Positions 4,110 through 60,635 of a stretch of DNA of 64,000 nt are shown here, one piece after another. The stretch comes from Nibribacter ruber. Lineage in GTDB: Bacteria; Bacteroidota; Bacteroidia; Cytophagales; Hymenobacteraceae. A program made the position numbers and the translations under genes. The stretch is taken from the NCBI RefSeq assembly GCF_009913235.1, contig NZ_CP047897.1, forward strand, positions 1,755,501 through 1,819,500. Direction: 5' to 3'. The notes under the pieces are model-generated. The model had not been told where the DNA came from, did not search any database, and saw only the letters and a program-made list of their open reading frames with translations. Each line of letters opens with the position of its first letter. Position 1 is the first letter of the stretch.

Positions 4110-4127
4110 TAGGAAATCGATTTCCTA
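4110..4127. promoter_or_regulatory. LacI-family-type operator candidate upstream of GH97
   Basis: TAGGAAATCGATTTCCTA is a perfect 18-nt palindrome with a central CG, the usual form of LacI/GalR-family operators. It lies 86 nt upstream of the GH97 start on the minus strand. No LacI gene is in the window, so the regulator would act from elsewhere. Confidence 0.5.
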
Positions 4128-4162
4128 AATTAGGCTATTTTCTGGAAAACAGGGCAAAAACG
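4125..4162. repeat. Degenerate copy of the 38-nt palindromic repeat
   Basis: The right arm (GGAAAACAGGGCAAAAACG) matches the family, but the left arm has lost its CGTTTTT end. It sits 2 nt from the stop codon of the saccharopine dehydrogenase-like gene. Confidence 0.6.
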
Positions 4163-4164
4163 CC

Positions 4165-5508
4165 TTACGCTCCCAAGGTTTCTACCCGCTCTTGAAACTG
4201 AACGCCAAAGGCTTGCAGCTCTTGCAGCACCGGCGCGTAGACCTCCGCCTGCAGCGGTACCACCACTCCTGTTTGTTTTAATTGCCCCTGCAGCAACAGT
4301 TTGGTGGCAATGCCCACGGGCAGGCCCACGGTTTTAGCCATGGCGGTGTGCACCTCGTCATCGCCTAACACCACCAGGGAAGAAGTGAGCTTGTGGCGCT
4401 GCCCATCTAATTCATATTCAAATAGATGGAGCATCACAATCATGTCTTTGTCGCCGGGGCTCAGTTGCCATTTCTGGGTGAGCAGTTTCTCCAGCGCCTG
4501 GGCGGGCGTGGCAGTGATCATGGCAATGGGCTCTTCCTCCAGCAGGCCGGCCCACTCTATCAGGTCCAATTCTGGGGCAGTTGACGGAATACCCGTGTAG
4601 GCGGCGATTCTTTCCCTGAGTGATAGGTTCTCCTGGCTCGCCGGTAAAAAGCTTTCTACTAGTTGGCGGTAGGTCATCTCCTGCGGATTGTCCAGGAAAT
4701 AGGTATCATCTGGCAGGCCCAGTTGCACTAGCACGTGCCAGGCCTGGCAGTAGCCGGGTCTACGCAAGGTACCCCGCAGCATGGTGGGGATTTCCTGCAG
4801 GCCGTACGGTTCACGGTAGCTCAGAGAGTCTCTGTTGGCGTAGCCGTCAAACAGGCCGTACCCGTCCACGGCAAAGGTCTGGGTGCGGTGAAACAGTTGT
4901 GGGTACGGAATGTATTTGTAGCTGCCGTCCTCAATGTATTTGGCGGTGCTCTGCCCCGCTAAAATCACGTTGCGCGGGTTCCAGGTGAATTTATAATGCC
5001 AAGGGTTGGTGTCAGATGCTGGGGCCATCAGTCCGCCGGTAAAAGACCTGAACGACGTGATGGTAGCGCCCTGCGCCTGCAAGTGGTGAATGATTTGCAT
5101 GGCAGACATGTGGTCAATGCCCGGGTCTAGGCCGCATTCCATCAAAAACGTGAGGCCTTTCTCCTGTGCCTGCGTGTGTAGTTGCTTAATATCTTCTGGC
5201 ACGTAGGATGCCGTAACCAGGTGCTTCTCCTGCTCCAGACACGTATGGGCCACCAAAGGATGGAAAAGCGCCGGAAGCATGGAAATGACTACATCTGCCT
5301 TGCCTACCTCCTCTTCGCGCTGCGCGGCGTCATGCACGTCAAAGGCAAAGGCCCTCACCAGCGGATTTTCTAAAAGGGAGGCCGATAAATGGTCTACGCG
5401 CACATCGCCTATGGCTAGTTGCCACTTTTCCTGAGGGGCGTTGATGACCAGGTATTCAATAAGCACTGATGCCGATCTTCCGGCACCCAACAGCAGAATG
5501 TTTTTCAT
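4165..5508 (-). CDS. Saccharopine dehydrogenase-like oxidoreductase
   Basis: 447 aa. The N-terminus MKNILLLGAGRSASVLIEYL is a Rossmann NAD(P)-binding loop (GAGRSA), followed by the saccharopine dehydrogenase catalytic region (ECGLDPGIDHMSA, SFTGGLMAP, NPWHYKFTWNPRNV). This matches the saccharopine reductase (LYS9) type, which joins glutamate and aminoadipate semialdehyde or runs the reverse reaction in lysine breakdown. No lysine-ketoglutarate reductase or other lysine degradation gene is adjacent, so pathway assignment is inference. The gene is single, divergent from cdd, and ends against a degenerate palindromic repeat. The ATG start gives the complete glycine loop directly at the N-terminus, as in relatives. 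Confidence 0.9.
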   Translation of the reverse strand: MKNILLLGAGRSASVLIEYLVINAPQEKWQLAIGDVRVDHLSASLLENPLVRAFAFDVHDAAQREEEVGKADVVISMLPALFHPLVAHTCLEQEKHLVTASYVPEDIKQLHTQAQEKGLTFLMECGLDPGIDHMSAMQIIHHLQAQGATITSFRSFTGGLMAPASDTNPWHYKFTWNPRNVILAGQSTAKYIEDGSYKYIPYPQLFHRTQTFAVDGYGLFDGYANRDSLSYREPYGLQEIPTMLRGTLRRPGYCQAWHVLVQLGLPDDTYFLDNPQEMTYRQLVESFLPASQENLSLRERIAAYTGIPSTAPELDLIEWAGLLEEEPIAMITATPAQALEKLLTQKWQLSPGDKDMIVMLHLFEYELDGQRHKLTSSLVVLGDDEVHTAMAKTVGLPVGIATKLLLQGQLKQTGVVVPLQAEVYAPVLQELQAFGVQFQERVETLGA

Positions 5509-5566
5509 AGCAGGCTAGAATAGAAGGCTCAAAATGGGCATTTTCTGCGGGACAGGCAACCTCTGC

Positions 5567-5596
5567 TTGGTTTTTCGGGCTAACTTATTAACTTTG
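5567..5596 (+). promoter_or_regulatory. Bacteroidota-type promoter for cdd
   Basis: TTG at 5567-5569 and TAACTTTG at 5589-5596 are separated by 19 nt, a full match to the Bacteroidota -33/-7 pattern. The ATG of cdd is 34 nt downstream of the box. Confidence 0.7.
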
Positions 5597-5630
5597 ACTC
5601 CCGTACGTGCTCGTGCGGAAACCGCACCTT

Positions 5631-6116
5631 ATGATCGAACAAGTACAACTTAACATTACCTATGACGTGGTGTCTTCTGAAGAAGGCCTCACCGCTCAAG
5701 AGAGACAAGTGCTCCAATTGGCCCAGAAAGCCACCTACAAAGCCTACGCCCCCTACTCCAATTTTATGGTGGGCGCCGCACTCCTACTATCAGACGGGAG
5801 TACGCACCAAGGCACCAATCAGGAAAACGCCGCCTATCCTTCTGGCCTTTGCGCAGAACGCACCTTATTGTTTGGCGTGGGCTCCAACTTCCCAGACCAG
5901 CAGATTGAGATTCTGGCCGTGACGGCCCGCCGTCGGCATGAGTCGCATTACCTGTCTGCCTGTCCTTGCGGGGCCTGCCGCCAGGTCATGGCCGAGTACC
6001 AGAACCGCCAGGGCAAGCCTTTCACGCTGCTCATGCAGAGCGAAGACGGGAAAGTGGTCAGGTTCTCCACCGCGCTGGATTTGTTGCCGTTTTCCTTCTC
6101 CAAAGAAAGTCTCTAG
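5631..6116 (+). CDS. cdd: Cytidine deaminase
   Basis: 161 aa from the ATG at 5631; an in-frame GTG at 5607 would add eight unlikely residues and sits almost on the promoter. The zinc site is present: NAAYPSGLCAERTLLF gives the first Cys and catalytic Glu (CAE), and PCGACRQV supplies the two further Cys ligands. The substrate-binding YAPYSNFMVGAAL motif precedes it. The enzyme converts cytidine and deoxycytidine to uridine forms in pyrimidine salvage, in the cytoplasm. Its own promoter lies just upstream, and the next gene begins 3 nt after its stop, so the two are probably cotranscribed. Confidence 0.95.
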   Translation: MIEQVQLNITYDVVSSEEGLTAQERQVLQLAQKATYKAYAPYSNFMVGAALLLSDGSTHQGTNQENAAYPSGLCAERTLLFGVGSNFPDQQIEILAVTARRRHESHYLSACPCGACRQVMAEYQNRQGKPFTLLMQSEDGKVVRFSTALDLLPFSFSKESL

Positions 6117-6119
6117 CCT

Positions 6120-6773
6120 TTGGCCGCGCAGCACCGCACTCTTACCGTTCCGCGCACCGCCCACTTACACCAGTTAGGCACGCTGTCAGAAACTACCCGG
6201 CAGGTATGGGTGGTCTGTCACGGCTATGGGCAACTGGCCAAGTACTTCATCCGGCATTTTCAAGGGCTGGAAGATGAGCAGACGGTAATTCTGGCGCCAG
6301 AAGGCTTGTCCAAGTTTTACCTGGAAGGCTTTTCGGGCCGCGTGGGCGCCACCTGGATGACCAAAGAAGAACGCCTGCTGGAGATTGAGGACTACGTGCA
6401 GTACCTGAATTTAGTCTGGCAACTAGTTTCAACTGAGGCACCCCATGCCCAACTCACATTGCTGGGCTTCTCGCAGGGCGCAGCCACCGTCTGCCGCTGG
6501 CTGGCGGCCTCGCCCGTGGCTTGCGCACAACTCATCATCTGGGCTGGGGCTTTCCCCGAGGACATAGACTACAGCGGCCTCACGGCCAAGCTTGCCACTT
6601 CTCCCGTATATTTGGTGCACGGTTTACAAGACAGCCTCATTACGGAAGAGCGCCTGCAGGCCCAGTTGGCCATGTTGAACGCACAGCACATTCATCCGGT
6701 GCTGGTGCCCTTTACTGGCAAGCATGAATTGAACAAAGAGGTCTTGGCGCAATTGAAAGCCGGTCTTCTCTAA
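6120..6773 (+). CDS. Alpha/beta hydrolase, phospholipase/carboxylesterase family
   Basis: 217 aa with a TTG start 3 nt after the cdd stop; no ATG is available before the conserved region, so TTG or translational coupling is likely. The catalytic triad is visible: GFSQGA (nucleophile Ser), Asp in HGLQDSLI, and His in TGKHELN. VCHGYGQLAKYF near residue 32 supplies the oxyanion-hole region. The family hydrolyses small esters or lysophospholipids; the real substrate is unknown. It lies downstream of cdd and just ahead of a DUF695 gene, with spacings that suggest a three-gene unit. Confidence 0.85.
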   Translation: MAAQHRTLTVPRTAHLHQLGTLSETTRQVWVVCHGYGQLAKYFIRHFQGLEDEQTVILAPEGLSKFYLEGFSGRVGATWMTKEERLLEIEDYVQYLNLVWQLVSTEAPHAQLTLLGFSQGAATVCRWLAASPVACAQLIIWAGAFPEDIDYSGLTAKLATSPVYLVHGLQDSLITEERLQAQLAMLNAQHIHPVLVPFTGKHELNKEVLAQLKAGLL

Positions 6774-6794
6774 AAAGAACACATCAGAAACCCC

Positions 6795-7292
6795 ATGGCG
6801 CAGGCATTTACCCCCGCATACTTGAAAGCGTTGATCACGGAAGAGGACGTCTGGTCCATCGCCGAAGGAGAGAACAATGGCACCCCTTTCTCCGTGAGGT
6901 TCAGGCCTCATTTGCAACCTTTCCTTGAAACCGGCCGCTACGCCAAACGGCTCATCATCCTCTGGAATTATACTTCTGAGGACGAATACCTATTCCCTAC
7001 TCCGGAGGACATGGATGTGATGGCAGACGTGGAGGAAACGCTGGTAGACCATTTGGAAGCAGATGCCCAAAGCGTGTTGACCTTCGTCTTCACCGGCCAG
7101 GAAAGAAGAGAATGGCACTGGTATACGTCAGACATGGCCTCGGCTCAGGAACGATTGAATGAAGCCTTGTCTCATTTTGACCGGCTACCAATTGAACTCA
7201 CCGCCGAGGATGACGCTGACTGGGCAGAATACCTTTCCATTTTAGAGAATATGGAAGAGGCGGAAGAAGAAGACTCAGAAGAAGATTTGTAG
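6795..7292 (+). CDS. DUF695-like protein with acidic tail
   Basis: 165 aa, cytoplasmic, no signal peptide. The core (YAKRLIILWNYTSEDE, DVEETLVDHLEADAQSVLTFVFTGQERREWHWYTSD) resembles DUF695 proteins, whose biochemical role is not known. The last ~15 residues are almost all Glu, Asp and Ser. It starts 21 nt after the hydrolase gene and is probably the last gene of the cdd unit. A palindromic repeat begins 13 nt after its stop. Confidence 0.8.
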   Translation: MAQAFTPAYLKALITEEDVWSIAEGENNGTPFSVRFRPHLQPFLETGRYAKRLIILWNYTSEDEYLFPTPEDMDVMADVEETLVDHLEADAQSVLTFVFTGQERREWHWYTSDMASAQERLNEALSHFDRLPIELTAEDDADWAEYLSILENMEEAEEEDSEEDL

Positions 7293-7305
7293 AAAGGGAT
7301 CATGT

Positions 7306-7343
7306 CGTTTTTGGCTTGATTTCCAGAAAATAAGCCAAAAACG
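7306..7343. repeat. 38-nt palindromic repeat
   Basis: Exact 38-nt unit, arms CGTTTTTGGCTT and AAGCCAAAAACG with an imperfect middle. The outer stem is extended perfectly to 7299-7350 by ATCATGT/ACATGAT. It lies between two convergent genes and touches the stop codon of the VOC gene. Confidence 0.9.
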
Positions 7344-7349
7344 ACATGA

Positions 7350-7742
7350 TTATTCTCCCCAAATGCCGGGCATGATGATTTCCAGCAGGTGATGGTCGGG
7401 GTCCCGGAAGTAGCAGGACTTGCGGCCCTGGGGCCAGAGTTCTTCATGTTCAATTGAGATGTTGGCCTGCAGGAGCATTTCCTTCCAAGCCTCATATTCT
7501 TCTGGTTGGCATTCAAAGGCCAGGTGCACGTGGCCAGAGCCGGAGTGGGGCGGCAGCCCGTGGTTGTTCTGGCTCTTCTCTGGGTCAAAGCACAGCAGCA
7601 CAGAGGTTCCCACCCTGAAGAACACGTAGCAGTCCTGCAACTGCCCAATCACCGGCAGCCGAAGCACCTCGGCGTAAAAATGGGTAGTACGTTTCAAATC
7701 CTGCACATACAGGCAGGTTTCTTTTATCTGGGTGAACTCCAT
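7350..7742 (-). CDS. VOC-family (glyoxalase/bleomycin-resistance fold) protein
   Basis: 130 aa from the ATG at 7742. A longer in-frame reading to 7835 only translates the upstream palindromic repeat and is rejected. FTQIKETCLYVQDLKRTTHFYAEVL begins the first beta-alpha-beta module; HVHLAFEC, and DPDHHLLEI near the end, hold the usual metal-ligand His and Glu positions. Members include glyoxalases, dioxygenases and antibiotic-binding proteins; this sequence does not allow a choice. Single gene. Confidence 0.85.
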   Translation of the reverse strand: MEFTQIKETCLYVQDLKRTTHFYAEVLRLPVIGQLQDCYVFFRVGTSVLLCFDPEKSQNNHGLPPHSGSGHVHLAFECQPEEYEAWKEMLLQANISIEHEELWPQGRKSCYFRDPDHHLLEIIMPGIWGE

Positions 7743-7790
7743 AGAAAAGGCTTTCCTATTTGAACGAAAGCGCAATTCTAAAGGATGCTT

Positions 7791-7828
7791 CGTTTTTGAC
7801 CTATTTCCTTGAAAATGAGCCAAAAACG
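7791..7828. repeat. 38-nt palindromic repeat
   Basis: Exact 38-nt unit, left arm CGTTTTTGACC, right arm GAGCCAAAAACG; the inner stem is imperfect. It lies upstream of the VOC gene and directly abuts the terminator of the SDR gene. Confidence 0.85.
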
Positions 7829-7830
7829 AC

Positions 7831-7866: not shown

Positions 7867-7908
7867 AAACTCAGAGTCTTGAATCTTATATCTTGTATCT
7901 GTTACAAT

Positions 7909-10206: not shown

Positions 10207-10250
10207 AAAAAACGCCGCCCCGGCCATTGCTGGTCTGAGGCGGCGTTTTT
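10207..10250. terminator. Intrinsic terminator after the PorE-like gene
   Basis: Stem AACGCCGCC/GGCGGCGTT is flanked by an A-run and a T-run, so it can act in both directions. Its plus-strand T-run (10246-10250) is also the first arm of a 38-nt palindromic repeat. Confidence 0.85.
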
Positions 10251-10281
10251 AGGCTGGTTTCTGGAAATTAGGCCAAAAATG
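10244..10281. repeat. 38-nt palindromic repeat fused to a terminator
   Basis: Exact 38-nt unit; left arm CGTTTTTAGGCTGGTTTC, right arm GAAATTAGGCCAAAAATG. Its left end is the T-run of the adjoining terminator. It lies 5 nt beyond the stop of the PorE-like gene. Confidence 0.85.
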
Positions 10282-14164: not shown

Positions 14165-14205
14165 CAGAAAGGCCCCCGTCCATGGACGGGGGCCTTTCTG
14201 TTTTT
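14165..14205 (+). terminator. Intrinsic terminator of the engB unit
   Basis: A perfect palindrome with 18-nt arms beginning CAGAAAGGCCCCCGTCC is followed by TTTTT. The T-run doubles as the left arm of a palindromic repeat. Confidence 0.92.
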
Positions 14206-14236
14206 GGCCAGTTTTCCAGAAAACAGGCCAAAAACA
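14199..14236. repeat. 38-nt palindromic repeat fused to a terminator
   Basis: Left arm TGTTTTTGGCCAGTTTTC, right arm GAAAACAGGCCAAAAACA; the outer bases are TG/CA instead of CG/CG, a compensated change. It lies between convergent DUF5606 and fbp and shares its T-run with the terminator. Confidence 0.9.
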
Positions 14237-16678: not shown

Positions 16679-16716
16679 CGTTTTTTGCCTATTTTCACCG
16701 AAACAACCCAAAAACG
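16679..16716. repeat. 38-nt palindromic repeat
   Basis: Exact 38-nt length; left arm CGTTTTTTGCCTATTTTC, right arm GAAACAACCCAAAAACG. Less symmetrical than most copies. It begins 9 nt after the aspartate kinase stop and ends 18 nt before the crotonase ATG. Confidence 0.8.
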
Positions 16717-17553: not shown

Positions 17554-17591
17554 CGTTTTTGGGCTGTTTTCTGGAAAACAGCCCAAAAACG
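17554..17591. repeat. 38-nt palindromic repeat, near-perfect copy
   Basis: This copy best represents the family: left arm CGTTTTTGGGCTGTTTTC, centre TG, right arm exactly complementary. Pairing extends five more bases each side (17549-17596), giving a 23-bp stem. Confidence 0.95.
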
Positions 17592-17832: not shown

Positions 17833-17872
17833 CTGTTTTCGCCCTGATTTACAGGAAACTGACTAAAAACGA
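17833..17872. repeat. Degenerate palindromic repeat copy
   Basis: CTGTTTTCGCCCTGATTT and AGGAAACTGACTAAAAACG retain the family ends and order but the stem is broken. Confidence 0.5.
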
Positions 17873-21184: not shown

Positions 21185-21222
21185 CGTTTTTGGCCACTTT
21201 TCCAGAAAACAAGCCAAAAACG
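21185..21222. repeat. 38-nt palindromic repeat
   Basis: Exact 38-nt unit, left arm CGTTTTTGGCCACTTTTC, right arm GAAAACAAGCCAAAAACG; 105 nt downstream of rsgA. Confidence 0.88.
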
Positions 21223-21316: not shown

Positions 21317-21356
21317 CAATAGCACATCAGCATATTTACTAATTAGCACATTATAC
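21317..21356. repeat. AGCACATCAGCACATTA-type word repeat, left copy
   Basis: TAGCACATCAGCATATT and TAATTAGCACATTA lie just before the cyclophilin ATG. An inverted copy lies downstream of the same gene. Confidence 0.7.
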
Positions 21357-21359
21357 AAC

Positions 21360-21871: not shown

Positions 21872-21909
21872 AAATAGCCGAGGGACGTTCGTTTCTCGGC
21901 TATTTTTTT
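21872..21909 (+). terminator. Intrinsic terminator of the cyclophilin gene
   Basis: AAATAGCCGAG pairs with CTCGGCTATTT, followed by a run of seven T. The T-run leads directly into a degenerate palindromic repeat arm. Confidence 0.85.
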
Positions 21910-21927
21910 GAAATCAGGCCAAAAACG
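21890..21927. repeat. Half copy of the palindromic repeat fused to a terminator
   Basis: Only the right arm GAAATCAGGCCAAAAACG is clear; the left arm is replaced by the terminator's CTCGGCTATTTTTTT. Confidence 0.6.
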
Positions 21928-21935
21928 GTATAATG

Positions 21936-21967
21936 TGCTAATGGTTGAATGTGCTGATGTGCTAATT
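21936..21967. repeat. Word repeat, right inverted copy
   Basis: AATGTGCTGATGTGCTAATT and TGTGCTAATGG are the complement of the word repeat at 21317-21356, so the cyclophilin gene is flanked by an inverted pair. Confidence 0.65.
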
Positions 21968-24063: not shown

Positions 24064-24101
24064 CGTTTTTGGGCTATTTTCTGGAAAACAGACTAAAAAC
24101 G
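24064..24101. repeat. 38-nt palindromic repeat overlapping a stop codon
   Basis: Exact 38-nt unit: CGTTTTTGGGCTATTTTC and GAAAACAGACTAAAAACG. Its right end supplies the last two codons and the TAG of the MoxR gene. Confidence 0.9.
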
Positions 24102-25933: not shown

Positions 25934-25971
25934 CGTTTTTAGGGTGTTTTCTGGGAAATAGGCGAAAAACG
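25934..25971. repeat. 38-nt palindromic repeat
   Basis: Exact 38-nt unit; left arm CGTTTTTAGGGTGTTTTC, right arm GAAATAGGCGAAAAACG. It starts 1 nt after the TAA of the small membrane protein gene. Confidence 0.85.
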
Positions 25972-26091: not shown

Positions 26092-26178
26092 TCACATTTA
26101 CACACTCCCAATTGCACATCTCCAAATTTTCAAATCAAAAGAAATAGCACATCAGCACATTACCTAATTAGCACATTA
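26092..26178. repeat. AGCACATCAGCACATTA-type word repeat
   Basis: Words such as TTGCACATCTCCAAATTTTC and AGCACATCAGCACATTACC follow one another, then TAATTAGCACATTA. It sits 3' of the vWA gene. Confidence 0.7.
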
Positions 26179-27288
26179 GACCCGTTTCTTGCGATTGCGG
26201 CCGTAGTCTCTAAACACCAGGTCTCCTAGGCCTTGCAGACTGCTGTAGTAGGCCTGGCCATTGTTGACTTGGGTAAATTCTTCTACAAACTGTTGCAGGT
26301 AGGGGTCTGAGGCAATCATGAACGTAGTAATGGGAATGTTGAGTCTTCGGCACTGTGCGGCCAGATTGAGCGTTTTGTTCACCACTTTTCTATCCAACCC
26401 GAAACTGTTTTTATAGTACTTCAGACCTTCTTTGAGGCAGGTGGGCTTTCCGTCTGTAATCATGAAGATTTGCTTGTTGCTGGTTTTTCTGCGGCGTAGT
26501 AAGTCCATGGCTAGTTCAAGGCCGGCCACCGTGTTGGTATGGTACGGGCCCACCATCAGGTATGGCAGGTCTTTGACGGTTATCTGCCAGGCGTCATTCC
26601 CAAACACGATGATGTCTAGGTTGTCTTTGGGGTATTTGAGTTTGACCAGCTCGGCCAGGGCCATGGCTACCTTCTTGGCGGGCGTGATGCGGTCTTCGCC
26701 GTACAGTATCATGCTGTGCGAAATATCAATCATGAGCACGGTGCTGGTCTGGGTCTTGTGCTCTCGCTCGGTTACCTCCAGGTCGTTTTCTGTCAGGAAG
26801 AAGTCATCTGAGAGACCGTGGTGAATCTGGGCGTTCCTAATGGACTCGGTGAGTTCAATCTGCTCTGGCGCATCTCCGAAACGGAATTCGCGGCGGTCTG
26901 CGTTGGGCTCATCGCCTATGCCCGACTTGGGCGTGGTGTGGCTGCCGCGGCCGCCTTTCTTCAGCTTCCCGAAGATTTCCTCCAGCGCGCTCTTTCTAAT
27001 CTTCTGCTCGCCTTTGGCCTGTAGTTGGAACTGACCGTCCGGGCCTTTATCATCTATGTAGCCCTGTTTCTTGAGGTCTTCAAAGAAATCACCCATGCCA
27101 TAGGAATCGTCGGTGAGGCGGTACTTCTGGTCTAGCTGGTTGAGCCAGGACATGGCCTCCGCCACATCACCGGCGGTGAGGGTGATAATCTGCAAGAAAA
27201 TGTTGAGCAGTCCCTCAAAGCCTTTCTGGGTAGGTTCTTCGGGCACGAAATTGGTAAATCTATATCCGGCTGACATGGTAAAAGACAT
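26176..27288 (-). CDS. vWA-domain protein paired with MoxR ATPase
   Basis: 370 aa (ATG at 27276, four residues in, is an equally good start). The N-terminal ~190 residues are helical and carry a charged linker. The C-terminal vWA domain has an intact MIDAS: DISHSMIL (DxSxS), the central Thr region, and ITDGKPT. It resembles the D-type subunits of chelatase-like complexes and most likely works with the MoxR-like ATPase encoded downstream. Target unknown. Confidence 0.85.
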   Translation of the reverse strand: MSFTMSAGYRFTNFVPEEPTQKGFEGLLNIFLQIITLTAGDVAEAMSWLNQLDQKYRLTDDSYGMGDFFEDLKKQGYIDDKGPDGQFQLQAKGEQKIRKSALEEIFGKLKKGGRGSHTTPKSGIGDEPNADRREFRFGDAPEQIELTESIRNAQIHHGLSDDFFLTENDLEVTEREHKTQTSTVLMIDISHSMILYGEDRITPAKKVAMALAELVKLKYPKDNLDIIVFGNDAWQITVKDLPYLMVGPYHTNTVAGLELAMDLLRRRKTSNKQIFMITDGKPTCLKEGLKYYKNSFGLDRKVVNKTLNLAAQCRRLNIPITTFMIASDPYLQQFVEEFTQVNNGQAYYSSLQGLGDLVFRDYGRNRKKRV

Positions 27289-27879: not shown

Positions 27880-27910
27880 AAACGCCCCGCTGCAAAGTGG
27901 GGCGTTTTTG
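27880..27910 (+). terminator. Intrinsic terminator of the DUF427 gene
   Basis: AACGCCCCGC pairs with GTGGGGCGTT (one G-T pair), followed by TTTTT. Confidence 0.88.
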
Positions 27911-27955: not shown

Positions 27956-27987
27956 AAAAACGCCCCGCTTTCCAGCGGGGCGTTTTT
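27956..27987. terminator. Bidirectional terminator of the desaturase gene
   Basis: AAAAACGCCCCGCT and its complement AGCGGGGCGTTTTT enclose TTCC. The plus-strand T-run is also the left end of a palindromic repeat. Its stem is nearly the same as the terminator 70 nt away. Confidence 0.88.
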
Positions 27988-28018
27988 AGGTTATTTTCTG
28001 GAAAAGAGGCCAAAAACG
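27981..28018. repeat. 38-nt palindromic repeat fused to a terminator
   Basis: CGTTTTTAGGTTATTTTC and GAAAAGAGGCCAAAAACG; 38 nt. Lies 9 nt beyond the desaturase stop codon. Confidence 0.85.
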
Positions 28019-29984: not shown

Positions 29985-31446
29985 CCATTTTCTGAAGGCG
30001 TTCCCGGCGTTGTTACCTTGGGTGCTCAAGGCAGCGGGACCGTTACGGCATGCCTGGTGGCGTTGGCGATTAACGCCGCCTACGGCTCCAGACCCAGTGA
30101 CTCCAGACATGGTGCCGCAATCGTTACAGGGTTACACAGACCAACTTTTTTACCTGCCCGGCCAGATGGTGCAATTCCATTTGCGGGCCCTGCAACCAGG
30201 CAACCAACTCCTGCTACAGCATAGAACCTCCGCCCACTCCTGGCACTTGATAGCTGAGCATTCCTTTGATAAGATTCAACAGTCAGATACCTTAGACGAA
30301 GCTCAACAAGGCTGCCATTGGACTGTGGGGTGGTCGTTTGAGTTACCCGTTACTTTGCCCCAGGGTTATTACCGGGCGCTTCTGCTGAATGCAGAACTTG
30401 ATTTATCTTCTGAGATTCATTTTCTGGTAGGCACAGCCGCGCCCTCGGGCAAAGTAGCGGTATTGGCGCCAGTCACCACCTGGCAGGCGTACAATGCCTA
30501 CGGCGGCCAGTCTTTGTACCGAAACGCCTTTGCCCCAGAGCAGGTGACCTTGGTTTCTACGCTTCGGCCCAACACTGCACTCACCTACGCCAGAACCAAC
30601 AGCCATCAGCATGACCTGCGCATTGAGACCAACATTTACCATTGGTTTGACGAGCGCTACCGGGCAGACCTCCTTCCTGATTATTGGCTGGAGGCGCATC
30701 CTGAGCAGTTGGCTTCGTACCAAGTGTTGGTGTTGGCTTATCACGCCGAGTACTTCTCAGAAGCCATGTACCAAACGCTCCAGAAACTAGTCTGGCAACA
30801 AGGCAAGTCCCTGCTCTCTTTAGGCGGCAACCAGGTCTACTGGCAAGTGCGCTGGTACCAAAACTTCACGCAGTTGGAATGCCCGAAAAACGGCACTTTT
30901 TTCCAAAACAGCCCAAAACGTGGCGGCCTCTGGCGGCATTCTTCCCTCCCAGAAAGTCAGTTGCTAGGCGCCCAGTTCACCGAAGCCGGCATGGGCACTT
31001 ACGCTCCCTACCAGGTATTGGCACCAGACCATTGGTTGTTTGAGAATTGCCAGGTACAAGCAGGCCAATTTTTCGGAGAGAAGGGTCTGGACGGCCTCCC
31101 CCTCAGCGGCGATGAAACGGACACAAGCACCTGGAGCAGCCCACAAAATACCATCGTGTTGGCAAGAGGTGTGAACAAGGCGCAGGCCTCCCAGGAAACT
31201 GACATTTACGAGGCTGCAGACAAGAATTGGAATGGCGCTGGCGGGGGAGAAATCACCTTCACTCCGTTCTCAGAGCAGCACGCCGTCTTGGCTACAGGCT
31301 CCATCCAAAGCGGCGCGGGACTGGGCATAGATAAAGTATTTACCCAGATTATTGAGAATTTTATGCAGCGGTACCTTCATAGCGCCACTGGTAATACCAG
31401 CGCCGCAAAAACTGCAAGGGCACCCGTTTCTGGGTTAACCAAGTGA
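29971..31446 (+). CDS. N,N-dimethylformamidase beta subunit-like protein
   Basis: 491 aa from the ATG at 29971 (MALLNHFLKAFPALLPWVLK), overlapping the preceding gene by 14 nt. An N-terminal hydrophobic stretch suggests a membrane anchor or signal. The body matches the large (beta) subunit-like family: YLPGQMVQFHLRA, APVTTWQAYNAYGGQSLY, LVLAYHAEYFSEAMYQTLQKLVWQQGKSLLSLGGNQVYWQVRW, then NEITFTPFSE-like C-terminal segments. Real activity is unknown in such homologues. Residues about 305-318 (PKNGTFFQNSPKRG) look like a translated palindromic repeat copy. Its 3' end overlaps the convergent glycosyltransferase gene by 86 nt. Confidence 0.75.
   Translation: MALLNHFLKAFPALLPWVLKAAGPLRHAWWRWRLTPPTAPDPVTPDMVPQSLQGYTDQLFYLPGQMVQFHLRALQPGNQLLLQHRTSAHSWHLIAEHSFDKIQQSDTLDEAQQGCHWTVGWSFELPVTLPQGYYRALLLNAELDLSSEIHFLVGTAAPSGKVAVLAPVTTWQAYNAYGGQSLYRNAFAPEQVTLVSTLRPNTALTYARTNSHQHDLRIETNIYHWFDERYRADLLPDYWLEAHPEQLASYQVLVLAYHAEYFSEAMYQTLQKLVWQQGKSLLSLGGNQVYWQVRWYQNFTQLECPKNGTFFQNSPKRGGLWRHSSLPESQLLGAQFTEAGMGTYAPYQVLAPDHWLFENCQVQAGQFFGEKGLDGLPLSGDETDTSTWSSPQNTIVLARGVNKAQASQETDIYEAADKNWNGAGGGEITFTPFSEQHAVLATGSIQSGAGLGIDKVFTQIIENFMQRYLHSATGNTSAAKTARAPVSGLTK
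30883..30920. repeat. Degenerate palindromic repeat within a coding sequence
   Basis: CGAAAAACGGCACTTTTTTCC followed by AAAACAGCCCAAAACG keeps the order and most bases of the family and is read in frame as PKNGTFFQNSPKRG. Confidence 0.45.
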
Positions 31447-33644: not shown

Positions 33645-33682
33645 TGTTTTTGGCCTCTTTTCGGGAAAACAGGCCAAAAACG
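33645..33682. repeat. 38-nt palindromic repeat within the polysaccharide unit
   Basis: TGTTTTTGGCCTCTTTTC and GGAAAACAGGCCAAAAACG. It separates the flippase gene from the upstream aminotransferase gene; both are on the minus strand. Confidence 0.88.
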
Positions 33683-35405: not shown

Positions 35406-35443
35406 CGTTTTTAGACAGTTTTCCAGAAAAGAGCCCAAAAACG
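35406..35443. repeat. 38-nt palindromic repeat in a divergent region
   Basis: CGTTTTTAGACAGTTTTC and GAAAAGAGCCCAAAAACG. Unlike most copies it lies between two 5' ends (fdtA-like and PAP2 genes). Confidence 0.85.
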
Positions 35444-37395: not shown

Positions 37396-37433
37396 CGTTT
37401 TTGGGCTGTTTTCTGGAAAATAGCCCAAAAACG
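37396..37433. repeat. 38-nt palindromic repeat
   Basis: CGTTTTTGGGCTGTTTTC and GAAAATAGCCCAAAAACG; starts 3 nt after the glycosyltransferase stop. Flanks CGT/ACT are partly paired. Confidence 0.92.
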
Positions 37434-39784: not shown

Positions 39785-39822
39785 CGTTTTTAGGCTGTTT
39801 TACCAAAAATAGCCTAAAAACG
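39785..39822. repeat. 38-nt palindromic repeat
   Basis: CGTTTTTAGGCTGTTTTA and AAAATAGCCTAAAAACG; G-to-A and C-to-T changes at paired positions keep the stem (AGGCT/AGCCT). Extended by AAGT/ACTT. It is 10 nt after corA. Confidence 0.9.
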
Positions 39823-46158: not shown

Positions 46159-46196
46159 CGTTTTTGGGCTGTTTTCTGGAAATAAGCCCAAAAACG
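46159..46196. repeat. 38-nt palindromic repeat
   Basis: CGTTTTTGGGCTGTTTTC and GAAATAAGCCCAAAAACG; 80 nt beyond the stop of the DUF3352-like gene. Confidence 0.9.
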
Positions 46197-48982: not shown

Positions 48983-49196
48983 CCGTACAGAGTTCAGAAC
49001 CACAAAAATAACGGAAAAAGCTCCGCTTCAGCGTTTAGGCCCCGGCAATTTGCAGGATGTGGGTTTCTGGCGCTTCGGGTGCGGTTTTCTTTTTAACTTG
49101 CCGTTGGTCCATGTGCAAAAGGAGAAGGTGCTGATGTGCTTTTTCTTGATTTGAAATTTTGGAGATGTGAAAATGAGGAGGTAATAGATAATTTTC
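48983..49196. other. Intergenic region between divergent DUF3352-like and dtd genes
   Basis: No gene is convincing. Its right half holds a word repeat. Confidence 0.4.
49118..49180. repeat. Word repeat, left copy before dtd
   Basis: GGTGCTGATGTGCTTTTTC, TTGATTTGAAATTTTGGAG and ATGTGAAAATGAGG are the complement of the words at 49855-49922. Confidence 0.65.
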
Positions 49197-49234
49197 TGTT
49201 TTTGGCCTGTTTTCTGGAAAATACGCCAAAAACA
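49197..49234. repeat. 38-nt palindromic repeat upstream of dtd
   Basis: TGTTTTTGGCCTGTTTTC and GAAAATACGCCAAAAACA; the outer pair is TG/CA. Lies in the dtd leader region. Confidence 0.88.
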
Positions 49235-49794: not shown

Positions 49795-49832
49795 CGTTTT
49801 TAGGCTGTTTCTTAGGAAACAGCCTAAAAACA
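49795..49832. repeat. 38-nt palindromic repeat after dtd
   Basis: CGTTTTTAGGCTGTTTC and GAAACAGCCTAAAAACA; AGGCTG/CAGCCT stem shows compensated changes. 40 nt after dtd. Confidence 0.9.
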
Positions 49833-49854: not shown

Positions 49855-49922
49855 TTCTTCATCGCCAAATTTTCAAATTAATCATTAGCACATCAGCACA
49901 TTACTTTATTAGCACATTACAA
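49855..49922. repeat. AGCACATCAGCACATTA-type word repeat before mazG
   Basis: CGCCAAATTTTCAAATTAAT, CATTAGCACATCAGCACATT and TTATTAGCACATTAC run up to the ATG of the MazG-like gene. Confidence 0.7.
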
Positions 49923-49924
49923 CC

Positions 49925-50261: not shown

Positions 50262-50299
50262 CGTTTTTAGCCTGTTTTCTTAGAAATGGCCCAAAAACG
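50262..50299. repeat. 38-nt palindromic repeat fused to a terminator
   Basis: CGTTTTTAGCCTGTTTTC and GAAATGGCCCAAAAACG. Its A-run (50293-50297) is the A-run of the following terminator. 7 nt after the MazG-like stop. Confidence 0.88.
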
Positions 50300-51571: not shown

Positions 51572-51577
51572 TTTTTT

Positions 51578-51614
51578 TGAGTCTTGAGTCGCGAGTTATG
51601 AGTCTCGAGTCATG
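51578..51614. repeat. GAGTCTTGAGTC word repeat, left copy
   Basis: GAGTCTTGAGTCGCGAGTT and GAGTCTCGAGTC. The complement recurs on the other side of the palindromic repeat. Confidence 0.65.
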
Positions 51615-51628
51615 TTAAAAAAGTTTGG

Positions 51629-51666
51629 CGTTTTTGGCCTGATTTCTAGAAATCAGGCCAAAAACG
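51629..51666. repeat. 38-nt palindromic repeat, fully symmetrical copy
   Basis: CGTTTTTGGCCTGATTTC, centre TA, and its exact complement. With flanks TTGG/CCAA the whole 46 nt (51625-51670) is a perfect palindrome. Confidence 0.95.
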
Positions 51667-51694
51667 CCAATTAGATTTTCTGTGTCTTGAATCA

Positions 51695-51740
51695 CCAAAA
51701 CATCCTGACTCAGGACTCTGGACTCAAGACTCAGAACTAT
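51695..51740. repeat. Word repeat GACTCAAGACTC, right inverted copy
   Basis: GACTCAGGACTCTGGACTC then AAGACTCAGAAC. Inverted relative to the copy at 51578-51614. Confidence 0.65.
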
Positions 51741-55384: not shown

Positions 55385-55440
55385 TAAAAAAATGCGTTTT
55401 TGGGCTATTTACTGTGAAATAGCCCAAAAACGCATTTTTA
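55385..55440 (+). terminator. Palindromic repeat extended into a terminator
   Basis: The 38-nt repeat at 55395-55432 is lengthened by AAAAAATG/CATTTTT, which gives it a flanking A-run and T-run. It lies between the convergent receiver and rnhB genes. Confidence 0.75.
55395..55432. repeat. 38-nt palindromic repeat
   Basis: CGTTTTTGGGCTATTTAC and GTGAAATAGCCCAAAAACG; GGGCTA/TAGCCC is a compensated variant of GGGCTG/CAGCCC. Confidence 0.92.
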
Positions 55441-56178: not shown

Positions 56179-56215
56179 CGTTTTTGGGCTGTTTTCCCGG
56201 AAATAGGCCGAAACC
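56179..56215. repeat. Palindromic repeat, altered right arm
   Basis: CGTTTTTGGGCTGTTTTC and GGAAATAGGCCGAAACCG; 37 nt, the only full copy that departs from 38 nt. Confidence 0.75.
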
Positions 56216-56406
56216 GGTCCTTGGCGCAGACGCTCGCAGGTCCTGCCGGACGCTACGAGGTCTCTTGAGCAGCTGCTGTTCTAACTTGCAGACCACTTCG
56301 CCATCCCGGGCCTTCAAAGGGGACGCAATGCGTGAAGAAAATGTGCGTACTGGGCTGAACCTGTCCATCCACGCCTTGCCCTCTTCTTTTGGGATTACCT
56401 GCTGAT

Positions 56407-56900: not shown

Positions 56901-56955
56901 AGTCAGAAAGAATAGAGCCTGCTTAAGATCAGGAACGGCATATAACAGTAAAATC

Positions 56956-56993
56956 AGTTTTTTGGGTATTTCCCAGAAAACACACAAAAAACG
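56956..56993. repeat. Diverged 38-nt palindromic repeat upstream of acs
   Basis: AGTTTTTTGGGTATTTCC and GAAAACACACAAAAAACG. Length is kept though several pairs are lost. Confidence 0.65.
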
Positions 56994-57080
56994 CCCCCAT
57001 CCTTCATTCTATCCTTCTTATCCTTGGTCCTTTCCTGAGAAAATCTAACTTTAAGCACCCAACCACCACCTGACAAACAC

Positions 57081-58979
57081 ATGGACTACCGCATTAGATC
57101 ACTGGAAGAATACCAGACCGCCTACCAGAAAAGCGTGGAACAGCCAGAAGAATTCTGGGCCGGCATAGCCGAAAACTTCACCTGGCGCCAGAAATGGGAC
57201 AAGGTATTGAACTGGAATTTTGAGGAACCGCGCGTGGAATGGTTTGTGAACGGCAAGCTCAACATCACCGAGAACTGCCTGGACCGCCACCTGGAGAAGC
57301 GCGGCAACAAGCTGGCCCTCATCTGGGAACCCAACGATCCCAAGGAGCGCTTCATTAGATACACCTACCGCGAGCTGCACGAAAAGGTCTGCCAGATGGC
57401 CAACATCTTAAAGAGCAACGGCGTGCAGAAAGGCGACCGCGTCTGTATTTACATGCCCATGATTCCCGAGCTGGCGTTTTCTGTGCTGGCCTGTGCAAGA
57501 ATCGGTGCGGTGCACTCGGTGATTTTTGCCGGTTTCTCGCATACGGCCATGGCCGATAGAATCAACGACGCCCAAGCCAAAGTAGTCTTAACCTCAGACG
57601 GTTTGAACCGCGGGCCCAAGCAGATACCTGTCAAGCGGGTAGTGGACGAAGCCCTGGAAACCTGTCCCAGCGTAGAGAAAGTGATAGTGGTAGACCGCGT
57701 GGGCTGGGCGGTGAACATGGTAGAAGGCCGCGACGTCTGGTACCATGAGGAACTGGAGCAGGTAGACAAGCACTGCCCCGCTGAGGAAATGGACGCTGAG
57801 GATTTGCTGTTCATTCTGTACACCTCGGGCTCTACCGGAAAACCCAAAGGCGTGGTGCACACCTGCGGCGGCTACATGGTCTACACAGATTATACCTTTA
57901 GAAACGTCTTCCAGTACGAGGAGAGTGATATTTACTGGTGCACGGCAGACGTGGGTTGGATAACCGGTCACTCCTATCTGTTGTACGGGCCGCTTTTGTC
58001 TGGGGCAACTACGCTCATGTTTGAAGGCGTGCCCACGTTCCCAGACCCAGGCCGTTTCTGGCAGGTAATTGACAAGTTTGGCGTGAACATTTTCTACACT
58101 GCTCCTACCGCCATCCGGTCTCTCATGGCCTCTGGTTTGGATCACGTCTTGTCGTATAGTCTGGACTCCTTAAAGGTGCTGGGCTCTGTGGGTGAACCTA
58201 TCAACGAGGAGGCCTGGCATTGGTATCATATTCACGTGGGCAAAGAGCGCTGCCCGGTGGTAGACACGTGGTGGCAGACAGAGACGGGCGGCATCATGCT
58301 CAGTTCCTTGGCCAACATCACGCCTACCAAGCCCAGCCATGCCGGTTTCGCGTTGCCTGGCGTGCAGCCCATCTTGATTGACCAGGAAGGCAAAGAAATC
58401 ACAGAAAATGAGCAGGAAGGCTACTTGTGCATGAAGTTTCCGTGGCCGGGCATGATACGCACCACCTACGGCGACCATGAACGCTGCCGCCAAAGCTACT
58501 TCAGCACCTATCCCAATCTCTACTTCACAGGTGACGGCGCCAAGCGCGACAAGAACGGACTCTGGCGCATCATTGGCCGCGTAGATGACGTGATCAACGT
58601 GTCGGGGCACCGCTTTGGCACCGCCGAGATTGAGAACGCCATCAACCAGAACAAGCATATTGTGGAGAGCGCCGTGGTGGGCTATCCGCATGACGTGAAA
58701 GGCCAGGGCATTTACGCGTTTGTAGTCTGCGGCGAGGAAGCCCCCACCAACCAGGAGAACCTCCGTGCCGAAGTCATTGAAACCGTGGTAGACCAGATAG
58801 GCAAGATTGCCAAACCAGACAAGATTCAGATAGTGAGCGGCCTGCCCAAGACCCGGTCGGGCAAGATCATGCGCCGCATCTTGCGCAAAGTGGCCGAAGG
58901 AGACACCTCTAACCTGGGTGACACCAGCACGCTGTTGGATCCACCCATTGTTGACGAAATTGTAAAAGGGGCCTTGTAG
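57081..58979 (+). CDS. acs: Acetate-CoA ligase
   Basis: 632 aa, the usual length. N-terminal ACAS_N region, then AMP-binding motif YTSGSTGKPKGVVHT, WCTADVGWITGHSYLLYGPL, DTWWQTETGGIM, TGDGAKRDKNGLWRIIGRVDDVINVSGHRFGTAEIE, and the C-terminal acetylatable Lys in PKTRSGKIMRRILR. It makes acetyl-CoA from acetate, ATP and CoA, in the cytoplasm. Single gene. An 82-nt spacer to the upstream repeat holds a weak TAACTTTA -7-like box. Confidence 0.96.
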   Translation: MDYRIRSLEEYQTAYQKSVEQPEEFWAGIAENFTWRQKWDKVLNWNFEEPRVEWFVNGKLNITENCLDRHLEKRGNKLALIWEPNDPKERFIRYTYRELHEKVCQMANILKSNGVQKGDRVCIYMPMIPELAFSVLACARIGAVHSVIFAGFSHTAMADRINDAQAKVVLTSDGLNRGPKQIPVKRVVDEALETCPSVEKVIVVDRVGWAVNMVEGRDVWYHEELEQVDKHCPAEEMDAEDLLFILYTSGSTGKPKGVVHTCGGYMVYTDYTFRNVFQYEESDIYWCTADVGWITGHSYLLYGPLLSGATTLMFEGVPTFPDPGRFWQVIDKFGVNIFYTAPTAIRSLMASGLDHVLSYSLDSLKVLGSVGEPINEEAWHWYHIHVGKERCPVVDTWWQTETGGIMLSSLANITPTKPSHAGFALPGVQPILIDQEGKEITENEQEGYLCMKFPWPGMIRTTYGDHERCRQSYFSTYPNLYFTGDGAKRDKNGLWRIIGRVDDVINVSGHRFGTAEIENAINQNKHIVESAVVGYPHDVKGQGIYAFVVCGEEAPTNQENLRAEVIETVVDQIGKIAKPDKIQIVSGLPKTRSGKIMRRILRKVAEGDTSNLGDTSTLLDPPIVDEIVKGAL

Positions 58980-59080
58980 GCCCTTTTTCTTGTAAGCTAG
59001 TTTATCCCGCACCCAAGGCTAACCTTTTGCCGGCAATGTGGTACAACTTAGTCGCATTGATATACCTTACTCACACAACC

Positions 59081-59347
59081 ATGACCTTAGACATAAAACA
59101 CGACAAAGAAAACCAGCAGTTCACGGCTTTTCTGGAAGACCAGGAGATTGGAGAACTGGCCTATGCCCTGCCAGAAGATGGCGTCATGGATTTTCAGCAT
59201 ACGTTCATTGAACAGGAATACCGTGGCAAAGGCCTAGCCGACCAACTCATACAACACGGCCTGGACCATGCCAAGAACAACGGCTTCAAAATTGTGGCCA
59301 CCTGCACGGCCGTCGCCAAGTACCTGGAAAGACACCAACAGGCGTAG
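59081..59347 (+). CDS. Small GNAT-type N-acetyltransferase (YjdJ/GCN5-like)
   Basis: 88 aa from the ATG at 59081. A truncated GNAT core: FTAFLEDQEIGELAYALPEDGVMDFQHTFIEQEYRGKGLADQLIQHGLDHAKNNGFKIVATCTAVAKYLERH, with the acetyl-CoA loop EYRGKGLA. The family of ~90-aa proteins (GCN5-related, YjdJ) has few known substrates. It follows acs by about 100 nt, which could hint at use of acetyl-CoA, but that is only suggestive. It ends 60 nt before a composite terminator. Confidence 0.88.
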   Translation: MTLDIKHDKENQQFTAFLEDQEIGELAYALPEDGVMDFQHTFIEQEYRGKGLADQLIQHGLDHAKNNGFKIVATCTAVAKYLERHQQA

Positions 59348-59390
59348 CCTTTTCCGTTGGCAAACGAGCTTCTTCACTTCACGGCCAACT

Positions 59391-59466
59391 AACCTGCCCC
59401 GCTTCTCGTTTTTGGCCTGTTTTTCAGAAAACAGCCTAAAAACGAGAAGCGGGGCAGGTTTTTTAT
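59391..59466 (+). terminator. Composite terminator with a palindromic repeat as its tip
   Basis: AACCTGCCCCGCTTCT (59391-59406) pairs with its complement (59445-59460), followed by six T. The 38-nt repeat occupies the whole region between the two arms, so the combined stem is about 34 bp. Confidence 0.85.
59407..59444. repeat. 38-nt palindromic repeat inside a terminator
   Basis: CGTTTTTGGCCTGTTTTT and AGAAAACAGCCTAAAAACG, framed by a 16-bp GC-rich stem. Confidence 0.9.
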
Positions 59467-59473
59467 AGGGCAT

Positions 59474-59509
59474 AAAAAAAGAGCCTCGGTGTATTACCGA
59501 AACTCTTTT
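59474..59509 (-). terminator. Terminator of the LysM gene
   Basis: AAAAGAGCCTCGGT pairs with ACCGAAACTCTTTT with a small internal bulge. On the minus strand it is followed by T-rich sequence. Confidence 0.75.
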
Positions 59510-59538
59510 CTAACAAACCAACAAAGAAGGTCTTCTGC

Positions 59539-59829
59539 TTATCCTCTAGGAATGACCAGCTTCTGCCCCGGGTGGATTAGGTTCGGGTCTTTGATCTGGT
59601 CTGTGTTGGCCTGATGGATTTTGTGCCACTGCTGGGCATCGCCGTACACGTGCTTGGCAATTTTTGAAAGGGAGTCGCCGCTCTGTACGGTATAGTATTC
59701 TTGGGCGCCTTGTGCAGGCTGTGCCGGTTGCGCCGCTACGTTGGGGTTATTCTTGAAAAAATCATTATTGGCGGCAGGCTTGGCAGCCGGCTTTTCTTCG
59801 CCTTTCTTTAAAAAATCAAACAGTCCCAT
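59539..59829 (-). CDS. LysM peptidoglycan-binding protein
   Basis: 96 aa. N-terminal MGLFDFLKKGEEKPAAKPAA, a Pro/Ala/Gln spacer, then one LysM domain (YYTVQSGDSLSKIAKHVYGDAQQWHKIHQANTDQIKDPNLIHPGQKLVIP). This resembles the LysM half of YgaU/Kbp-like proteins, but the BON half is missing. No signal peptide, so it probably stays in the cytoplasm or binds glycan after lysis. Single gene with its own terminator. Confidence 0.92.
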   Translation of the reverse strand: MGLFDFLKKGEEKPAAKPAANNDFFKNNPNVAAQPAQPAQGAQEYYTVQSGDSLSKIAKHVYGDAQQWHKIHQANTDQIKDPNLIHPGQKLVIPRG

Positions 59830-60029
59830 AGTTGTATCTCTAGTTTAGTTGGCATGGCCTCAGGACGGTCTTTTAGCGAGCACCCTGGCCTATACCATTT
59901 TACTTACGAATCCGCTTGTCCTTTGTTAATCTTATTTAGCTGAACTGTGAGGTAAATACCACGTAAGAAGTACGAGTTTGCCATTTCAGCAAGCCATGAC
60001 CTGAATAAAAAAACCAGAACCTAACAACT

Positions 60030-60455
60030 ATGAAAAAGACAATTGCAACCCACCTTCAACCTTTGTTCACCTTGGTGTTCGTTCTCACGCTGAGCGCCTT
60101 CACGTTTAGCTGCAGCGGCAACAAAGAAAGCGGCGGCGACTCCAGCATGATTGCCGGCACCACCAGCAAAATCTGGAAAGCCGACAAGGAAACCAATGCC
60201 GCCGGCGACAAGGACAAGTTGACTTCTGCAGAGAAAGAAGAGCAGATTCAGTTCTTCGCCAACGGAAACTTCACCCAGACATCTAGCAGCCAGTCGGCCA
60301 ACGGTACCTGGACCTATGACGCCAGCACCAAGACCTTGAGCCTTACCTACGCCAACAACAACGTAAGCGAGAACTTCAAGGTAAACGAACTCACCAAAAA
60401 CGACCTGAAACTACAAGCCCCAGACGGTTCTACCCTGGAACTAGAGGCTGAATAG
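60030..60455 (+). CDS. Lipocalin-like lipoprotein
   Basis: 141 aa. Lipoprotein signal (TLSAFTFSCSGN), then IAGTTSKIWKADKETNAAGDKDKLTSAEKEEQIQFFANGNFTQTSSSQSANGTWTYDASTKTLSLTY, the pattern of the lipocalin-like small lipoproteins common in Bacteroidota. Probably at the outer membrane. Ligand unknown. Ends at a strong terminator. Confidence 0.85.
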   Translation: MKKTIATHLQPLFTLVFVLTLSAFTFSCSGNKESGGDSSMIAGTTSKIWKADKETNAAGDKDKLTSAEKEEQIQFFANGNFTQTSSSQSANGTWTYDASTKTLSLTYANNNVSENFKVNELTKNDLKLQAPDGSTLELEAE

Positions 60456-60472
60456 TTTAAAATCACCTTAAG

Positions 60473-60510
60473 AAAAGCCCGCTCTGTTTGTGTACAAGGC
60501 GGGCTTTTTT
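60473..60510 (+). terminator. Intrinsic terminator of the lipocalin-like gene
   Basis: AAAAGCCCGC pairs with GCGGGCTTTT, followed by more T. Confidence 0.9.
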
Positions 60511-60590
60511 AATGAGTGAATGAGTGATTGAATGAATGAGAGAATGTGGTTTAATGTGCTGATGTGTTTTTCGATTTGAAGATGTTGTTT
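60511..60590. repeat. Word repeat, left copy
   Basis: AATGAGTGAATGAGTGATTG, then TTTAATGTGCTGATGTGTTT and CGATTTGAAGATGTTG. Complementary words follow on the other side of the palindromic repeat. Confidence 0.65.
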
Positions 60591-60597
60591 GGTCATC

Positions 60598-60635
60598 TGT
60601 TTTTGGGTTATTTTCTGGAAAACAGGCTAAAAACG
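60598..60635. repeat. 38-nt palindromic repeat
   Basis: TGTTTTTGGGTTATTTTC and GAAAACAGGCTAAAAACG, between two inverted word repeats. Confidence 0.88.

Follow-up and report, generated by a model that had tools for sequence, protein, structure and literature searches.

A genus-wide 38-bp inverted repeat behind the genes of Rufibacter, a candidate protein-read DNA site

The gaps between genes in a 64,000-nt stretch of the Nibribacter ruber chromosome (contig NZ_CP047897.1, positions 1,755,501 to 1,819,500; "the window" below) contain many copies of a 38-bp inverted repeat. An earlier note on this stretch had described about 24 full and four degenerate copies. For the present survey, the genome with the window (G000; contig C1, 4,352,178 bases in a single contig) was treated as Rufibacter and compared with relatives numbered G135 to G145. 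Copies in the window were searched for with an ungapped 38-column weight matrix, and genes were called with our own dicodon caller. The matrix recovered 27 copies: all of them reached 25 bits, 26 reached 30 bits and 24 reached 40 bits, with no further copies between 25 and 15 bits; a reversed control on a 400 kb sample gave no match at 15 bits. One more look-alike, at about 30884–30921 (family D4), scored below 15 bits and was left out of the count. With the strict consensus and at most three mismatches, five matches were found in the window and none in 100 shuffles.

Nine of the window copies lie in convergent gaps, 14 in tandem gaps (one over a stop) and four in divergent gaps. Eleven of the 27 overlap a stop codon or sit within 15 nt of one; the earlier note had placed copies mostly in gaps next to stop codons, many of them 1–15 nt after the TAA. 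Among the eleven are a degenerate copy at 4125–4162 (29.6 bits), 2 nt from a stop codon and present in the same degenerate form in G142; tandem-gap copies at 16679–16716 (46.4 bits, 8 nt past the stop) and 37396–37433 (63.4 bits, 3 nt past the stop); a convergent-gap copy at 25934–25971 (52.0 bits, 1 nt past the stop); and a copy at 24064–24101 (59.0 bits) over the stop codon of a minus-strand gene, with the same overlap in G140 and G143. The copy at 39785–39822 (50.7 bits), 10 nt past a stop, has been lost in G142 and is found in four of the six other relatives with the orthologue. Further tandem gaps hold copies at 7791–7828 (48.3 bits), 21185–21222 (57.0 bits), 33645–33682 (57.9 bits), 46159–46196 (57.1 bits), 49795–49832 (51.4 bits) and 60598–60635 (57.5 bits), and a copy in a convergent gap at 21890–21927 (44.9 bits) has private changes in common with G142. 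Copies in divergent gaps were located at 35406–35443 (52.3 bits), 49197–49234 (54.8 bits), 56179–56216 (48.9 bits) and, in degenerate form, 56956–56993 (35.1 bits); another degenerate copy lies at 17834–17871 (33.2 bits).

Several copies are embedded in longer palindromes or adjoin terminator hairpins. A consensus copy at 17554–17591 (64.2 bits) has perfect 18-bp arms and 5-nt palindromic flanks, and one in a convergent gap at 7306–7343 (57.5 bits) has 8-nt palindromic flanks. The perfectly paired copy at 51629–51666 (59.6 bits) is flanked by TTGG/CCAA and then a T-run, with a similar flank in G142 and G143, and at 59407–59444 (60.6 bits) 16-bp perfectly complementary flanks are followed by a T-run. 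The copy at 55395–55432 (49.4 bits) caps a bidirectional terminator-like hairpin, which has the same layout with other stem letters in G142, G143, G135 and G136. A T-tract is common to the copy and to a terminator hairpin at 10244–10281 (49.0 bits; upstream GC-rich hairpin, score 16.7), at 14199–14236 (55.3 bits; GC-rich hairpin, score 25.5; likewise in G140) and at 27981–28018 (58.3 bits; hairpin 27958–27987, score 18.0), and at 50262–50299 (50.6 bits) the right A-tract is common to the facing gene's terminator hairpin (score 25.7). The GC-rich hairpin that shares its T-tract with the 27981 copy is preceded, 78 bases earlier, by a nearly identical terminator at 27880–27909.

The repeat consensus across the genus is YGTTTTNGGNCTGTTTTCNNGAAAACAGNCCNAAAACR. 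Each half has two GTTTT boxes 11 bp apart, which places the T-tracts one helical turn apart within each arm, and the halves are inverted around a 2-bp centre. The length, which the earlier note gave as exactly 38 nt in all but one full copy, is rigid: of 203 inverted half-site pairs in 504 kb of G000, 200 were separated by 2 bp. Lone half-sites are rare, and the base outside the repeat is C or T at −1 and A or G at +1 in about nine of ten copies. Read in transcript sense, the centre is CA in 66 copies and TG in 53; arms oriented by the CA centre differ little, most at positions 10 and 18. A test for subfamilies gave z > 3 at 12 of the 153 position pairs, chiefly near the centre or inside one arm. 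Pairs 13–26 and 17–22 were also linked, but toward fewer Watson–Crick pairs. The information content in G000 amounts to 51.6 bits per repeat.

At up to three mismatches, 968 copies were found in the whole of G000 (4.35 Mb) and none in the backwards control, and the weight matrix found 209 in a 504 kb sample, which scales up to about 1,730–1,805 for this genome; the earlier note, which proposed a search of the rest of the genome, had correctly estimated hundreds to thousands. Only 4 of 187 G000 copies lie inside called genes. Density per intergenic kb was 3.16 copies in convergent, 2.36 in tandem and 1.18 in divergent gaps, and in tandem gaps 214 copies were closer to the upstream stop and 80 closer to the downstream start. 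The mean spacing of G000 copies is 2.2–2.5 kb, with a coefficient of variation (CV) of 0.76–0.78 (exponential = 1); in larger samples the CV was 1.24 for G142 and 1.04 for G136.

A covariance model, as suggested by the earlier note, was built from 82 copies of eight genomes. The repeat emerged as a Rufibacter trait: all 16 Rufibacter genomes matched, with 25–33 of 33 scored candidates apiece, against nine of 188 other family genomes, with 1–3 sites each. Among 390 genomes of the order, matches at E ≤ 1e-5 were confined to the seven Rufibacter. The strict pattern matched 15 of 204 family genomes, all of genus g1, with 0 to 968 copies per genome; these counts are uneven because the consensus drifts between species. 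With species-adapted matrices, all eight sampled Rufibacter genomes had 3.6–7.2 copies per 10 kb and the reversed controls had none. Matches above 30 bits made up 204/209 in G000, 122/130 in G142, 86/94 in G136, 20/34 in G135, 21/21 in G140, 32/43 in G143, 17/18 in G138 and 6/8 in G145. Exact matches to a close pattern among 84,980 species comprised 17 stretches, from Rufibacter ruber, R. sediminis and Rufibacter sp. XAAS-G3-1, a tally from which the window's own or near records may be left out. Nothing alike was seen in samples of 40–80 kb taken from five sister genera (seven genomes; best matrix score 9.1). Several of the rare copies elsewhere (L142, L144, L145, L146, L147, L151) stand beside palindromes that resemble integron attC sites, as if in gene cassettes; Rfam gave no match at these palindromes, and no common partner gene was noticed at the copies in other genera. 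Two matches in G126 span 70 bp and look spurious. One exact degenerate pattern of the repeat had no match in IMG/VR contigs, and one consensus query had none in PLSDB plasmids.

The repeat is retained at orthologous positions between species that have diverged far. Fourfold-site identity between G000 and G142 is 0.586, and it is 43–59% for the six relatives tested. Among 65 orthologous gaps of G000 and G142, the repeat was present in both in 33, in one only in 2 + 2, and in neither in 28. Behind orthologous stops, G142 kept 38 of 42 copies, against 17% where G000 has no copy; the corresponding figures were 13/16 for G140 (19% background), 17/22 for G143 (33%), 18/26 for G135 (38%) and 10/15 for G138 (13%). 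In 31 G142 pairs, T-tract positions 4, 5, 6, 15 and 16 had changed in 1.6% and degenerate positions in 31.7%; across aligned copies of six relatives, T-tract change ranged from 1.6% (G142) to 13.6% (G135) and change at degenerate positions from 32 to 49%. In a simulation of neutral decay, 0–0.8% of copies would still be recognisable. The repeats of orthologous sites were more alike than random pairs in G142 (0.820 vs 0.752), slightly so in G140, G143 and G138, and not in G135 and G136.

Sites that differ between G000 and G142 comprise six apparent losses (outgroups divided for two) and two without polarity. No clear gain was found among them; two differences (0_84 and 1_10) could be gains, with one outgroup genome each lacking the repeat, and no clean 38-bp insertion was noticed among the G000/G142 alignments listed. 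In 5-kb windows of G000, G142 and G136, no copies were found in four windows with a GC content below 0.40 and two in seven windows at 0.40–0.44, compared with about two copies each above 0.48. One of the low-GC islands encodes a phage-type integrase; a DNA methylase and a protein with an arm-DNA-binding domain were seen in another. Three copy-free stretches of 10–16 kb have a GC content of 0.49–0.50, hence are no islands. The consensus has also shifted: T at position 7 of the half-sites is found in 95% in G000, 82% in G142 and 17–36% in six other genomes. That so many old sites have sharpened in parallel suggests either one shared reader or that copying has renewed them. The repeat is best read as ancient, largely immobile now and held behind gene ends by purifying selection.

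The earlier note had described the differences between the arms as paired, which did not hold up. In 24 window copies, double changes filled 14 cells, where shuffles gave 11.5 and 110 of the 500 came out as high. In 206 G000 copies, 17 of the 18 pairs showed the pairing expected of independent columns, and pair 13 fell below it (z −2.4). Neither set showed the significant covariation that the note proposed to look for; weak signals from G136, pair 7 of G142 and a mixed-species alignment are weighed below. Read in transcript sense, the cores of 296 tandem-gap copies from eight genomes had 330 G.U and 350 A.C combinations, i.e. no strand bias (G000 132/105, p 0.09; G142 60/89, p 0.02; G136 59/64; the other five pooled 79/92). 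Copies without palindromic flanks had 2170 pairs vs 2217.5 expected in G000, 1276 vs 1265 in G142 and 942 vs 921 in G136. Flanking stems contained 17 G.U and 3 A.C, a count that was not used because the stem score itself favours G.U. An RNA hairpin with covarying arms was rejected for most copies, the arms being independent in G000 and G.U not exceeding A.C; compensatory change and an excess of G.U, the marks of a structured RNA, are lacking apart from the weak signals in G136 and the mixed alignment.

A minority of copies are connected with terminators. Palindromic flanks, which make the copy the tip of a longer and in some cases terminator-like hairpin, were found in 68 of 519 copies (about 13%) from eight genomes, and in G000 in 24 of 187 vs 1.3 expected. 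A T-run ends 25 of the 68 vs 64 of 451 controls, and the flanks of the 55395 site are palindromic with differing letters in five species. On 16 sides of the 187 G000 copies, two of them doubtful (long loops), a T-tract is common to an adjoining GC-rich hairpin; about 0.7 would be expected. T-runs lie within 20 nt downstream of 34 of 144 copies and upstream of 28. Most copies lack the GC-rich hairpin and following U-tract of an intrinsic terminator, which occur in the minority with palindromic flanks. The earlier note's statement that the polarity is opposite to that of a terminator is right for the core alone, but some copies form part of terminators, sharing a T-tract or capping a longer hairpin.

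A tie to repetitive extragenic palindrome (REP)-associated tyrosine transposases (RAYTs) was also considered, following the earlier note, which saw no transposase or RAYT-like gene in the window and proposed a search for a partner. PF01797 (Y1 transposase, RAYT-like) is indeed absent from the window; of the three G000 genes, the nearest two are 16 kb and 42 kb away from it. All but one of the 16 Rufibacter genomes have the family, the exception being G142, which lacks a PF01797 match but equals the others in repeat density. The three RAYT-like genes of G000 (G000:C1:1739310, 1861595 and 4297876; L080, L082, L083) each adjoin a small palindrome family of their own (GAGTCT..AGACTC, GGGGATT..AATCCCC and CTCGCC..GGCGAG). 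A copy of the 38-bp repeat is found downstream of each, and on both sides of 1739310, as it is behind many other genes. RAYT as the partner of the repeat was rejected on these grounds, as was a parent transposon with half-sites as its ends, for which 824 kb of sequence from G000 and G142 gave no candidate.

Other repeats were also noticed. A second, AT-rich family of GCACATCAGCACATTA and TTAGCACATTA units (families D5 and D6; inverted pairs I8 and I17) lies at window positions 21320–21358, 26145–26183 and 49886–49924, and in reverse complement near 21922–21967 and 49125–49175; two copies are directly upstream of start codons. A short motif, GAGTCTTGAGTCGCGAGTC, occurs in gaps behind genes (window 51572–51736; G000:C1:1736201-1736357) and is also present in G142.

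From sequence comparisons, we consider the chances about even that the repeat is a double-stranded DNA site read by a protein, the likeliest of the readings; its favoured, though hypothetical, use would be as a boundary or roadblock. This reading rests on the genus-wide density, the retention, the placement nearer to stops than to starts, the rigid 2-bp spacing, the independent arms, the absence of strand bias and the rarity of half-sites; rigid half-site spacing, independent arms and a conserved core are what a protein-binding palindrome should have, and the in-step shift at position 7 is as expected of a common reader. The family probably originated in a burst of copying in the genus ancestor and would later have been put to use. 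A symmetric DNA-binding protein may bind the repeat, either as a tetramer or as a dimer whose subunits each have two reading heads. The bound protein would mark transcription-unit boundaries, where it would hinder read-through and keep neighbouring or facing genes apart; this is the least certain step. It may cooperate with the usual terminators, which in a minority of cases would receive a T-tract or hairpin tip from the repeat.

A number of observations weigh against this reading. The strongest is that the information per repeat far exceeds the ~11–12 bits that by our own arithmetic are enough to mark 1,750 sites; an ordinary binding site needs far less, and in this respect the repeat resembles a copied element. 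Retention was modest in G136 (18/33, 0.55, vs 0.41 background) and barely above background in G145 (4/7, 0.57, vs 0.50; 15 genes), and matrix detection of both members favours conserved pairs. Weak pairing signals were seen in G136 (pairs 1, 6, 7 and 18; z 2.5–3.6) and at pair 7 of G142 (z 3.1); the mixed-species alignment had 120 double-change cells vs 69.5 shuffled, a count inflated because the species differ in consensus. Copies with palindromic flanks pair better in the core (2.4 vs 4.65 unpaired of 18, p 2e-13), which weighs against a pure DNA site, since such a site does not need pairing. No binding protein was identified, and no genome-wide search for one was made. Finally, the repeat and ordinary terminators are unrelated in occurrence (tandem odds ratio 0.92, p 0.87; convergent odds ratio 1.52, p 0.39), and terminators number 18–35 per 100 kb in Rufibacter and 10–35 in sister genera. 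The idea that the repeat replaces ordinary terminators was unsupported by both comparisons. As terminators are neither exclusive of nor associated with the repeat, and not rarer, a role in ending transcription is hypothetical.

The competing explanations are not mutually exclusive, so our judgements of them can add up to more than one. The protein could instead serve chromosome folding or topology, as a nucleoid protein or a gyrase or SMC-type partner, the place behind genes being merely harmless. The even spacing in G000, the T-tracts one helical turn apart and the depletion in divergent gaps would suit this, but the larger CVs of G142 and G136 do not, and we regard it as somewhat unlikely. 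A full, genus-specific gene-end boundary system, in which a dedicated protein would turn some 1,750 copies from a domesticated burst into bidirectional roadblocks that insulate genes, with the sequence preference shifting at all sites along with the reader, as a whole seems rather doubtful.

A mobile REP-like family, or one like miniature inverted-repeat transposable elements (MITEs), moved by RAYT or another transposase and with copies of different age, would fit the high copy number of a short extragenic palindrome with so much information in common. The wide occurrence of RAYT-like genes in Rufibacter, the copy downstream of each in G000 and the possible gains at 0_84 and 1_10 point the same way. 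We nevertheless think it unlikely, in view of the equal density in G142, the other palindromes beside the RAYTs, the six apparent losses without a clear gain, the nearly copy-free low-GC islands, and the absence of a parent element in 824 kb and of matches to the single queries of IMG/VR and PLSDB. An RNA hairpin in the 3' untranslated region, acting as a terminator part or as a block to 3' exonucleases, would account for the palindromic flanks with their T-runs, for the stem kept with different letters at 55395 and for the shared T-tracts. Most copies, however, pair no better than expected, G.U equals A.C in transcript sense, T-runs are barely commoner downstream than upstream, and a rigid 2-bp centre is unlike an RNA loop; this explanation seems distinctly improbable.

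Like intrinsic bidirectional terminators, the repeat lies behind genes, and some copies share a T-tract or form a hairpin tip; it differs in having the T-tract inside the 5' arm, a fixed sequence and independently varying arms. The matS, parS, SlmA and Noc sites are palindromic protein sites of conserved sequence in many copies. The repeat is likewise palindromic and many-copied, but its copies are far more numerous, longer and behind genes, and its protein is putative. REP/RAYT systems are likewise short, extragenic, palindromic and many-copied (PMC2817692, PMC3116915, PMC3733652, PMC12306157), and by the broad definition of a REP (extragenic, palindromic, short, multicopy, with a common consensus) the repeat is one on every point (PMC12306157). 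It lacks the GTAG tag, both ends reading YG... with C/T at −1 and A/G at +1, and differs from RAYT-linked REPs in having no specific RAYT tie, in being conserved in place between species and in showing no clear gains. CGTC-tagged REPs, palindromes without a dedicated transposase that are reported from Bacteroidetes too, carry CGTC at one end only, a 4–5 bp loop and an unpaired tail, whereas the repeat has YGTTTT (CGTT) at both ends, a 2-bp centre and no tail (PMC3733652). Proteins bound to DNA are able to block RNA polymerase or help to end transcription; a dedicated palindrome placed behind genes across a whole genome was not met in the available parts of those reports (PMC10310618, PMC4132739, PMC4337669). 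The main text of PMC12306157 names neither Rufibacter nor Hymenobacter. The earlier note knew of no description of this family, and we likewise found none in the literature searched, which takes in few subscription papers, and no Rfam 15 match in the window at gathering scores. A DNA uptake sequence was rejected, given the rare lone half-sites and the few copies inside genes.

Extragenic palindromes of bacteria are mostly interpreted as RNA hairpins or mobile parasites. In this family of about 1,750 copies, the sites are kept between species at near-saturated divergence, vary as protein sites do and do not favour RNA pairing. Should a protein read the repeat, it would constitute a chromosome-wide mark of gene ends in bacteria, and Rufibacter and its sister genera would offer a sharp contrast of after and before.

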